From positions 62,001 to 126,000 of the forward strand of contig NZ_FUYV01000001.1 of NCBI RefSeq assembly GCF_900168165.1: a stretch of 64,000 bases of DNA. The letters run 5' to 3'. The position numbers and the translations under genes are program-made. A model generated the notes under the pieces. That model was given only the letters and a program-made list of their open reading frames with translations. It did not search any database and had not been told where the DNA came from. Positions 60,459 to 63,871 of the stretch are shown here, one piece after another. Position 1 is the first letter of the stretch, and each line of letters starts with the position of its first letter. Origin of the DNA: Alkalitalea saponilacus. GTDB taxonomy: Bacteria > Bacteroidota > Bacteroidia > Bacteroidales > Marinilabiliaceae.

Positions 60459-60524
60459 ACTTTAATGATTGTTCGTATTTTAATAAATCAGTGACTTTTT
60501 TATATAATTAGTTCATCAACTAAA

Positions 60525-60685
60525 TTCCAACTATAAACCATCAACTATCAACCCAGAACTTTAAACATTGAACTTCAATCCCCATCGCTTGCCCCCTAAC
60601 CTCCTAAAAGTGGAACCCTCATCCCGCACGTATCTTTCATAACTATAAACCATCAACCCAAAACCTTAACCATTAAACCTCAAAC
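60525..60685. repeat. Two clusters of degenerate heptanucleotide repeats (NNNNAAC)
   Basis: Eight consecutive 7-mers at 60525-60580 (for example TATAAAC, CATCAAC, TATCAAC, CCAGAAC, TTTAAAC, ATTGAAC), nearly all ending AAC, and seven more at 60637-60685 (TATAAAC, CATCAAC, CCAAAAC ...). The 17-mer AACTATAAACCATCAAC occurs in both (60529-60545, 60641-60657). The second cluster runs into the fur stop codon. The 7-bp phase is visible directly; function is unknown. Confidence 0.75.
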
Positions 60686-61108
60686 CTTCCCATTACAACT
60701 CGCACACACCCCTTCAATAATCAGGCTGCTTGATTTCATAACAAATCCCTCAGGAAGATGTTCTGACTGAACCTGAAGGTGCGGCATACAAACCAAACGG
60801 TTGCACAATTCACACTGAAAATGCGGATGATTACCGGTTTTGTGATTTCCAGCCAGTTTATATTTTACGGAGTTGGTTCCAACGATAATCTGATGTATCA
60901 GTTTCTTTTGCATCAGGGTTTTAATGTTACGGTATAGCGTCACTCTGTCCACTGAATTCATCCGTTGAGTCAGCAATTCCTCCATCTCTTTTTGGGTTAA
61001 AGCCATGGCCGGTTGCAAAAGAATATCAAGAATTTGTTGCCGTATTTCGGTAACATTCAGTTTGTTATTTCTTAGTATGCTGTTGATATAGTCTAAATTT
61101 GCAACCAT
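60680..61108 (-). CDS. Fur-family metalloregulator (probable Zur)
   Basis: 142 residues. An N-terminal winged helix (ALTQKEMEELLTQRMNSVDRVTLYRNIKTL) with the Fur recognition pattern is followed by a metal/dimerisation domain. The structural zinc pairs are CELC (FQCELCNR) and CASC near the C-terminus. The neighbouring zinc importer makes a Zur role likely. Its start codon is the centre of a perfect 12-bp-arm inverted repeat (61094-61120), which includes a TAAATTTG box, suggesting autoregulation and a leaderless message. Confidence 0.9.
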   Translation of the reverse strand: MVANLDYINSILRNNKLNVTEIRQQILDILLQPAMALTQKEMEELLTQRMNSVDRVTLYRNIKTLMQKKLIHQIIVGTNSVKYKLAGNHKTGNHPHFQCELCNRLVCMPHLQVQSEHLPEGFVMKSSSLIIEGVCASCNGKV

Positions 61109-61285: not shown

Positions 61286-61978
61286 ATGAAACTAAAAATA
61301 AGCTCTCTAATAATAACCACCCTCATCCTGCTCCTCATGGGAACCGGTTGCAAAGAGAGTACATATACTACCGTGGTAGAAGGAGTGGTTATAAACACCG
61401 GTAGCCGTCAGGGTATAGATAGCGTATTGGTAACTCTACAGGACGGTGTGAGCGGCACGGCTGGTGGCTTTAATCTGGATATGAACACATCATCGGGAAA
61501 AAAGAATCAGGTTTACACCGATGCCAACGGTGCGTTTCGTGTGGAGCTTACAGGTGAGCATCGCCCCTGGCTCAACGTGGGTAAGAAGGGGTATGCATTC
61601 TATCTTAGCGACCGTGAGAATGTTATGGGTTCACAGCTTTCTTTCCCCACTGGGTACACAGGGGATGTTGTAATTGAGATGAGTGCGGAGGCAAGTTTTG
61701 CACCAGTTCTTTTCAGCAAAGAAGCAACTGGGGGTGATGTGGTTCGGTTTAACGATCTTCCTTATGAAAAGCTTGATACTTTAAGTGATATTAATAAGTT
61801 TATAAGAACATTTAATGGCGTGGGTCCATTTGCTCCCTATCGAAATGGAGTATGGAGTATTGGTGACAAATATCGCAGGTACTACATAGAGCTAAATCGT
61901 GACAATACGTTTCATTCTCGCATCGACAGCGTCTATATCAAAGCGTTCGAGACATATCGGGATACCATATATTACTAA
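61286..61978 (+). CDS. Lipoprotein with carboxypeptidase-regulatory-like domain
   Basis: 230 residues. Lipoprotein signal ending in MGTGC (Cys22 or so). Residues ~30-110 (VVEGVVINTGSRQGIDSVLVTLQDGV ... YTDANGAFRVEL) form a CarboxypepD_reg-like beta-sandwich; the remaining part is unrecognised. Probably exposed on the outer membrane. The first 80 codons are nearly identical to those of the next gene: bases 61313-61530 match 62045-62262 at 212 of 218 positions. Confidence 0.8.
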   Translation: MKLKISSLIITTLILLLMGTGCKESTYTTVVEGVVINTGSRQGIDSVLVTLQDGVSGTAGGFNLDMNTSSGKKNQVYTDANGAFRVELTGEHRPWLNVGKKGYAFYLSDRENVMGSQLSFPTGYTGDVVIEMSAEASFAPVLFSKEATGGDVVRFNDLPYEKLDTLSDINKFIRTFNGVGPFAPYRNGVWSIGDKYRRYYIELNRDNTFHSRIDSVYIKAFETYRDTIYY

Positions 61979-62262
61979 TTCTGCCGTGTTTATCCCGGCA
62001 ATAGCACTACCATTGCCATGAAACAGATACTAATCGCACTAACCATAACCACCCTCATCCTGCTCCTCATGGGAACCGGTTGCAAAGAGAGTACATATAC
62101 TACCGTGGTAGAAGGAGTGGTAATAAACACCGGTAGCCGTCAGGGAATAGATAGCGTATTGGTAACTCTACAGGACGGTGTGAGCGGCACGGCTGGCGGC
62201 TTTAATCTGGAAATGAACACATCATCGGGAAAAAAGAATCAGGTTTACACCGATGCTAATGG
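61313..62262 (+). repeat. 218-bp direct duplication (61313-61530 and 62045-62262)
   Basis: Six mismatches in 218 bp, offset 732 bp. Five of the six changes are synonymous, one replaces Asp with Glu, so the copies were probably under selection or gene conversion after duplication. Confidence 0.9.
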
Positions 62263-62401
62263 AGTGGATTTGGCCGAAATGAATAAACTTTTACTTCAGA
62301 AAATTGAGGAGCTAACGCTGTATGTGATTGATCACCAGAAAGCACTACTTGAACAACAGAATGAAATCAATAACTTAAAAGAGTTATTGAATAGTTTTTA
62401 A
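62018..62401 (+). CDS. Chimeric short lipoprotein: duplicated N-terminus with a coiled-coil tail
   Basis: 127 residues. Residues 10-82 copy the preceding lipoprotein (only Asp/Glu differs). The reading frame then switches at TDANG to a 45-residue coiled coil (DLAEMNKLLLQKIEELTLYVI ... EINNLKELL), resembling the C-terminal tail of Bacteroidota tail-fibre/S74-type secreted proteins. The beta-sandwich is cut off mid-domain, so the product may be nonfunctional, or a coiled-coil-tethered surface fragment. Clear result of partial gene duplication and re-tailing. Confidence 0.7.
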   Translation: MKQILIALTITTLILLLMGTGCKESTYTTVVEGVVINTGSRQGIDSVLVTLQDGVSGTAGGFNLEMNTSSGKKNQVYTDANGVDLAEMNKLLLQKIEELTLYVIDHQKALLEQQNEINNLKELLNSF

Positions 62402-62430: not shown

Positions 62431-63597
62431 ATGAAAACACATATTGTAAATTTCTTATTAGTAGCATCATGGCTCATTATCCAGGCTATGTTACTCCCAA
62501 TTACAGCTCAAACGGTTAATCTTAATGGCATTTCAGTCACTATAGATGATATTCCCTTAAGCTGGAAGGGACTTAATGTTAATGTCGATAACGAATTAAA
62601 ATCAACGAACCAGGGCATAAAGGAACATCCAGTAGTATTTAAATCCAGTAATGGCAAGTTTCTGGCTAAGGCTACAAATGTTGAGGTTCTTGACCCTGAG
62701 ATATTGAAATCTTCAACCGGTTCTGATAAGGCTGTAAGTAAAATTGAATTATTTACCGATGACGGCGTTTTGATATACAGCAAAGAGTTAGATTACAAGG
62801 TGTTAAGAGCGTCAATTAGCGATGACGGTAAATACTCCCATGTCATGATCTACGAATATACCTATCTTAGTGAAAATGATTATTCAGAATTAAAAGTTCT
62901 TGATTCAAAAGGGAACCAGCTAAAATCTGTTCCTGATGTGGGGAACTATGCTGCAACAAATGACAATGGAGTGTATTATCTAAAAAATGAAAAAGATAAT
63001 GACCAGATACGTTTTTTTGGATATTTCAATATGGAAAATAACACTTCATGGGAACAACCGGTTGATATACAATCCTCTCTGTCTTCTGTTTCTCAGGATG
63101 GAAGTCATGTAGCACTAACTTCAACTAATTATCCCGGGCTGCAATCATTTAATTCAGCGGGTACGTTATTGTGGAGCAATCCAGAAATTTTAGGTGGAAA
63201 TTGGGATACTGCTTTGTCCCCAAATGGCAATTATTTGTTGTTTAGAAAAGGTAGAGAGAGATATATAATATTTGATAATTTGACTGGAGATTTCATAAGT
63301 TCAATCAGGCCATTTGAAGTAAATGGTGAACTTATGAACTTCAGAACAGGATGTTTTATTGATAATTCTGAAGATAGAATTTTGAATAGCTCAACAGTTC
63401 GCATAAATGGAGAAATCAGAACAGTATTAAGTGAGCACAATCTCCGCGGGGAGCTTATTCGAAAAGCTATTGTTCAAAGCACGGTTATAGGGTATAGGTT
63501 AAGTGCTGTGTTAAATAATGATAACACCATAAGTGTGTTTCTGGATGGATTAGAAGATGTCCGGTTAAACAGCGAATTTGAAACATTCTCTTTTTAA
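62431..63597 (+). CDS. Secreted WD40/beta-propeller-like protein, unknown function
   Basis: 388 residues. Signal peptide 1-26 (ending ITAQ). The body contains repeated strands of the type SISDDGKYSHVMIYEY, SVSQDGSHVALTS, ALSPNGNYLLFRKG, i.e. the D-G-x-Y pattern of beta-propeller blades. No catalytic residue or lipobox. Starts 30 nt after the chimeric lipoprotein. The family is not recognised beyond the fold. Confidence 0.75.
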   Translation: MKTHIVNFLLVASWLIIQAMLLPITAQTVNLNGISVTIDDIPLSWKGLNVNVDNELKSTNQGIKEHPVVFKSSNGKFLAKATNVEVLDPEILKSSTGSDKAVSKIELFTDDGVLIYSKELDYKVLRASISDDGKYSHVMIYEYTYLSENDYSELKVLDSKGNQLKSVPDVGNYAATNDNGVYYLKNEKDNDQIRFFGYFNMENNTSWEQPVDIQSSLSSVSQDGSHVALTSTNYPGLQSFNSAGTLLWSNPEILGGNWDTALSPNGNYLLFRKGRERYIIFDNLTGDFISSIRPFEVNGELMNFRTGCFIDNSEDRILNSSTVRINGEIRTVLSEHNLRGELIRKAIVQSTVIGYRLSAVLNNDNTISVFLDGLEDVRLNSEFETFSF

Positions 63598-63661: not shown

Positions 63662-63871
63662 ATGAAAGGTATAATAGTATATATTTTGGTTTTGAGTTTG
63701 TTCCTCATGAATATTGGATTGAATGCTCAAAACGCACGTAACCCAATCACCAACAATTCGACATCTGTCAATAATTATATTAGCAGTTCATATGGCCCCC
63801 GACTGATGCCTCCTAAAAAAGGTTCAAAATTTCATCCATCTATAGATTTCACCGTTCGCGCCGATTTGTAA
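63662..63871 (+). pseudogene. Truncated M23-type peptidase (N-terminal fragment)
   Basis: 69 residues: signal peptide (MKGIIVYILVLSLFLMNIGLNAQ), a short linker, then SSYGPRLMPPKKGSKFHPSIDF. The YGPR and H-x-x-x-D pattern match the beginning of a LysM-less M23 metallopeptidase core, including its first two zinc ligands, but the frame ends at TAA after FTVRADL. The remaining frames to 64000 do not continue the domain. Hence most likely a broken or recombined gene; a short secreted peptide is the alternative. Confidence 0.6.

Follow-up and report, generated by a model that had tools for sequence, protein, structure and literature searches.

The question raised by this locus of Alkalitalea saponilacus is how a gene came to begin like its neighbour and to end like a different secreted protein. 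In the window, that is, the whole stretch of 64,000 nucleotides under analysis, two ORFs lie on the forward strand with 39 bp between them, exactly where the first-pass annotation had placed them. Gene 1 (61286..61978) encodes a 230-aa lipoprotein ending in DTIYY, a member of a sparse Bacteroidia family with 11 relatives of which it could be aligned along its full length. Gene 2 (62018..62401) encodes a 127-aa chimera, in which codon comparison and matches to two profiles revealed the N-terminal part of a lipoprotein of the gene 1 family followed by the C-terminal coil of a tail family. The lipoprotein status of both products was read by eye from a signal peptide followed by a cysteine.

Counted from the ATG, nt 28–239 of the two genes (61313..61524 in gene 1 and 62045..62256 in gene 2, both on the forward strand) align without gaps at 98.1% identity (4 mismatches in 212 nt), and a match of this length and identity is far beyond chance. 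All four differences fall at third codon positions, three being synonymous and one changing D to E. When the block is extended through the A-N-G codons (nt 28–247), the ungapped comparison gives 7 mismatches in 220 nt (96.8%), close to the 218 bp at 97% first reported. Both edges of the shared block are sharp, one within the signal peptide and the other within the N-domain. Upstream of it, the first nine codons of gene 2 (62018..62044, forward) carry nine differences from gene 1, located at nt 7–27 (codons 3–9), and the repeat finder returned a longer pair of 245 nt at only 94% because it counted this divergent start in. Thus, the signal peptide, which had been described as part of the copied segment, is common to both genes only in part, its beginning being different. 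With unlike signal peptides, 'copied' may be the wrong word, and gene 2 may instead be a second array copy that was homogenised with gene 1. At the other edge, gene 2 departs from gene 1 at TDANG, with the A-N-G codons at 62255..62263 (forward; codon comparison and tail-domain alignment), and then reads VDLAEMNKLLLQKIEELTLYVI... into the coil (62264..62398, forward, codons 83–127). The observation as such was confirmed, and the reading of gene 2 as a partial duplicate that breaks off within the N-domain and runs on in frame into the coiled end of a known family of secreted proteins was supported. Protein searches of the 4.56-Mb genome at E ≤ 1 and E ≤ 10 detected no further places resembling gene 1 or gene 2.

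The gene 1 family was characterised with a 12-row profile, against which gene 1 scored 268 bits along its full length, including the conserved DTI(Y/F)Y end, and gene 2 aligned at positions 4–76 of 221 only, lacking that end. Relatives are scarce: searches with gene 1 gave one weak match (E 8e-4, 21% identity) in 118 other near genomes and matches in 9 of 394 other genomes sampled from the class (E ≤ 0.001), and the profile matched at least 35 of these 394 at E ≤ 1e-6. Up to seven first-look candidates per genome were scored in the profile searches, so that members may be missed and the counts are lower bounds. High-scoring full-length matches were found in six genomes (G144, G211, G275, G305, G320 and G437), to which none could be added among 1, 10 and 396 genomes around them; three stretches in viral contigs fitted a sequence pattern, none of them a relative. 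The carboxypeptidase-regulatory-like domain that had been assigned to gene 1 exists as a weak match to PF13620 (E 0.0061, 17.3 bits), below the curated cut-off of 32.3 bits, and 10 of the 12 family members match the same model weakly (E ≤ 0.1). NCBIfam returned nothing below E 0.16 for either gene. A structure model of gene 1 as a single protein had a mean pLDDT of 35.6, too poor for use, and a match of the lipoprotein to Cas1 chains in PDB profile searches (E 0.004) is unexplained and was not trusted.

The coil of gene 2 has a much wider distribution. At E ≤ 0.001, a search with the last 47 residues of gene 2 found matches in 34 of 118 other genomes (35 of 119 including its own), with no match in the one genome of the same genus at that threshold. 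As for a donor gene, which the first-pass annotation had proposed to seek in the rest of the genome, no second copy of the coil was detected there at E ≤ 10. A scan of contigs with gene 2 as query retained 78 tail loci, and from 179 of their tail domains we built a profile of 71 positions, which gene 2 matches at positions 35–70 (E 4.1e-18). Thus, a family with this tail, whose absence would have counted against the first-pass annotation, exists and is widespread in Bacteroidota, although no name for it was found in Pfam or NCBIfam. Among the matches listed, its proteins are secreted, often encoded by several genes in a row, and end in a DFVF...HLPDIPSA...G(V/I).L.EMNKLLLQKIEELTLY segment followed by the coil, with a tail-fibre-like body ahead. 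Of this architecture gene 2 has the coil; the body is missing, as is the upstream domain half (DFVF...HLPDIPSA). Immediately before the coil, NG was found in 69 and ANG in 12 of the 162 readable tail domains (of 179), ANG being also the point where gene 2 parts from gene 1.

Three full-length tail proteins compared with phage tail-fibre PHROGs gave one strong match (7e-24), one weak match (6e-4) and none, respectively, and the tail-fibre label first given to the coil is therefore reasonable; gene 2 itself had one PHROGs match, spanning the coil, at E 0.04. The companion label, S74-type, holds as an analogy, since an S74 domain fills the corresponding place in two of the six related loci described below, but a Pfam search with gene 2 gave nothing at E ≤ 1, and so no match to Peptidase_S74 (PF13884) either. 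A foreign origin of the tail on codon bias was rejected, as its in-phase GC3 (0.378) is ordinary for the window (7644 of 16,220 windows as low or lower).

At the same time, tail domains differ in how closely they resemble the coil of gene 2. In a ranking of 183 coils, the stand-alone tails L008, L005, L007 and L006 came first, and the four tails from loci with a gene 1 lipoprotein were placed 164, 174, 181 and 182, against 179 stand-alone domains that are favoured because gene 2 was the query by which their loci were retrieved. The gap is wide despite this bias, with 29 of 41 residues identical in the best stand-alone match and 20 of 42 in the best cluster tail, so the coil of gene 2 is of the common stand-alone type. 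Other tail loci showed arrangements of their own. At L109:7409-8156 (genome G003), three short tail-only units lie in tandem about 250 bp apart, with pairwise identities of 95%, 74% and 72%, and their similarity to the tail family sets in, as that of gene 2 does, close to the residues VNLAEMN; evidently, to judge by these units, the coil end can be copied by itself. In addition, loci L005, L008, L014, L019 and L048 contain, among the matches listed, tandem runs of 5 to 10 tail genes per 6–12-kb locus, whose products differ in the body but hardly in the C-terminal domain, possibly a cassette system of its own.

Where the lipoprotein family is full-length, both types of gene are neighbours. All six full-length loci contain a tail-type secreted protein, a hydrolase core and at least one gene 1 lipoprotein, the tail-type gene being on the same strand as the lipoproteins and first in order; the full-length three-part neighbourhood comprises these six loci only. 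In four of them (L131 to L134) the tail-type protein ends in a related coil recognised by the tail profile, and in the other two (L129 and L130, the gene of the latter split into two ORFs) Peptidase_S74 (PF13884, chaperone of endosialidase), a domain to which gene 2 has no match, replaces it. The hydrolase core with motif GPSMG was present in all six, the copy at L134 being truncated where its contig stops. The five complete hydrolases have 847–972 aa, are 29–60% identical across most of their length, and match Por_Secre_tail (5/5), DUF676 (5/5), PGAP1 (4/5) and LCAT (4/5) at E ≤ 0.1; in PDB profile searches the hydrolase match was confined to the C-terminal end. In the five loci with both genes whole, the lipoprotein and hydrolase ORFs either overlap or are separated by no more than 20 bp.

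As a control, the hydrolase core was found in none of the 78 tail loci and in none of 11 Fur loci, one of the latter lying inside another; in about two dozen of the tail loci the hydrolase profile did find a match, but solely to its T9SS sorting end. Twenty hand-picked stretches at weaker lipoprotein matches, out of 41 such places, contained the core in 9 cases, the tail in 1, S74 in none and the lipoprotein in 19. The hydrolase link thus extends to distant relatives of the lipoprotein, and only close members of the family show a link with the tail protein. Large hydrolase-core proteins, several of them of 1200–1850 aa and some cut by the locus edge, adjoin weaker gene 1 relatives at L174, L175, L177, L181, L182, L186, L188, L191 and L192, and the four that were scanned all match PGAP1 and Por_Secre_tail. 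With the terms searched, no description of such a cluster was found in the literature. What is new here is a recurrent three-part cluster of Bacteroidia, composed of a T9SS-type hydrolase, a coil or S74 protein, and lipoproteins, to which the odd fusion in gene 2 led.

Two of the six loci contain the lipoprotein genes in arrays, and the remaining four contain a single copy. In genome G320, five intact lipoprotein genes stand one after another, together with a sixth that is broken, apparently by a frameshift, with a second S74 set downstream of the array and a further lipoprotein gene about 5.7 kb on, past the second S74 gene. Genome G437 has one intact lipoprotein gene and four fragment ORFs. 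Among seven array copies (six from G320, one of them broken, and one from G437), identity in 50-nt windows ranges from about 40% to 100%, with the middles and the signal peptides being the most divergent. A site-compatibility test built for this analysis gave 0.486 over 108 sites, against a permutation mean of 0.609, with none of 2000 permutations as low (p 0.0005), so the copies look mosaic, as segment exchange within these arrays would make them. Positive selection in the middle of the copies was unsupported, with a pN/pS of 0.36 there (pS 0.79) and of 0.11 in the N-domain and C-terminal end. The pair in the window, with its common N-domain and its unlike signal peptides and ends, fits this pattern. 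Hence, of the earlier suggestion that surface-protein genes diversify here by recombination, the recombination finds a counterpart in the related arrays, and the diversification, as regards gene 2, is unsupported.

The surroundings of the pair differ from those in the same-genus genome. From 61166 to the end of the window (64000), and beyond it to about C46:134730, a block of about 11.5 kb does not align with G001, the only genome of the same genus found; there, about 0.6 kb separate the Fur gene from the conserved gene that comes next (182 aa in A. saponilacus), versus 11.6 kb of non-aligning DNA between the conserved parts here. This may be a gain here or a loss in G001. The block includes genes 1 and 2 and a gene for 388 aa; at L004:4018-10288 it contains a DDE transposase, two RelE-like genes, and an Rhs core end near an ORF matching Ntox23 (E 3.6e-22), after which comes a small lipoprotein-like ORF. 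The 388-aa gene comes right after gene 2 (62431..63597, forward); its product is secreted, belongs to no known family (neither Pfam nor NCBIfam gave a match, and a search of 20 other genomes at E ≤ 0.001 yielded no relative) and is unrelated to the cluster hydrolase. Further on, a 69-aa ORF (63662-63871) without Pfam match resembles by eye the start of an M23 peptidase (SSYGPRLMPPKKGSKFHPSIDF) and then stops. On the other side, an A+T-rich AACTATAAACCATCAAC-like unit occurs three times, in imperfect form, at 60522-60686 between a metal-binding lipoprotein gene and the Fur-like gene. The window has one whole lipoprotein copy, one chimera and no hydrolase core, where G320 and G437 have tandem mosaic copies, and the coil fused into gene 2 is the sole coil near gene 1.

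How, then, did gene 2 originate? We consider it an even call that it is a chimeric array copy which took its coil from a tail-family gene next to it by fusion, most likely as a by-product. A second lipoprotein copy would have existed in an array, its N-domain homogenised with that of gene 1; it would then have been joined, at the A-N-G codons common to both, to the C-terminal coil of a neighbouring tail-family gene, either by a deletion or as the new junction of a tandem duplication ending in both genes; and, the frame being preserved, a 127-aa lipoprotein would have resulted, without the rest of the lipoprotein and ending in the coil. In favour of this fusion are the sharp edges of the shared block and the 98% identity between them, the joint presence of a tail-type gene, the hydrolase core and a gene 1 lipoprotein in all six relatives, the tandem arrays with broken and mosaic copies in two of these, the ANG or NG that precedes the coil in tail genes, and the ordinary GC3 of the tail. 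As the tail gene precedes the lipoproteins in these relatives, the fusion requires a tail gene located after a lipoprotein copy, an order that does occur, since a second S74 set follows the array of G320. Against it, a relative of gene 1 was detected in none of the 78 tail loci at E ≤ 0.01, and neither a hydrolase core nor a whole tail gene lies within the 80 kb read (the window and 16 kb after it). The low ranks of the cluster tails also make it less probable that the cluster's own tail gene was the donor; the donor, being nearer to stand-alone tails, may have adjoined the lipoprotein without belonging to such a cluster.

The same ranking favours a different source, in which a stand-alone tail gene with no relation to the cluster supplied the coil, for instance through the block of about 11.5 kb, and gene 2 is a chance junction of imports. 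The transposase and other mobile-looking genes of this block and the lack of another copy of the coil in this genome agree with it, but types of gene that are neighbours in all six relatives would then have met by chance, and the tail codons have an ordinary GC3; we regard it as possible, though less likely than the array fusion. Domain shuffling, as suggested in the first-pass annotation, might also have made gene 2 into a new surface lipoprotein of use to the cell and kept by selection, but this seems unlikely. The frame, signal peptide and coil of gene 2 are all intact, and the third-position differences, three of them synonymous, point to coding constraint on at least one copy and speak mildly against pure decay, but a pN/pS for the pair is based on four changes, which decide little about constraint on either gene. 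Moreover, the N-domain is cut midway, the conserved upstream half is missing from the tail domain, both related arrays contain broken copies, and any fusion on the same strand keeps the frame one time in three, the last two points also leaving diversification through gene 2 unsupported; gene 2 is probably not in use. An assembly artefact, with the second copy or the coil join created by the assembler, is highly improbable. The genome is a draft in 96 contigs and a 212-nt repeat may exceed short reads, but the copies differ at four positions, both lie deep inside a 582-kb contig, and unique DNA before, between and after them leaves, by reasoning, one linear path. Fusion of an array copy, then, is the origin we prefer, and gene 2 looks like the recombination by-product of an often reshuffled array and not a proven new protein.

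With regard to function, the product of gene 2, if made, would be a lipid-anchored coil, possibly able to self-associate. Gene 1 may once have served a cluster hydrolase, either protecting its producer as an immunity protein or aiding the folding of the enzyme as a chaperone. A broader scenario, which we hold to be rather doubtful and which the coil ranking makes less probable, would make the locus the remnant of an undescribed Bacteroidota cluster whose T9SS-exported GPSMG enzyme is an antibacterial lipase, displayed or delivered by the tail-fibre-like coil or S74 protein and neutralised by arrayed lipoproteins that vary by exchanging segments; gene 1 would then be an immunity gene left as an orphan, and the fusion in gene 2 would show the coil to be a cassette able to move between members of the cluster. 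If the lipoproteins are immunity factors, the cluster offers a concrete test of T9SS in bacterial competition, and if they are not, it is still an example of array genes fusing with other secreted-protein genes.

In form, the arrays resemble those of the T6SS of Vibrio cholerae, for which PMC5361080 describes arrays of orphan immunity genes of secreted effectors. As in those arrays, tandem mosaic copies are found here beside a secreted enzyme, and copies without the enzyme also occur. Unlike them, the enzyme has a T9SS sorting signal and not a T6SS one, and the gene 1 family is not known to be involved in toxicity or protection. PMC7073777 puts forward, as speculation, that T9SS exports polymorphic toxins. 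Neither source is evidence on the gene 1 family; the likeness is one of organisation, that is, of tandem mosaic copies beside a secreted enzyme.
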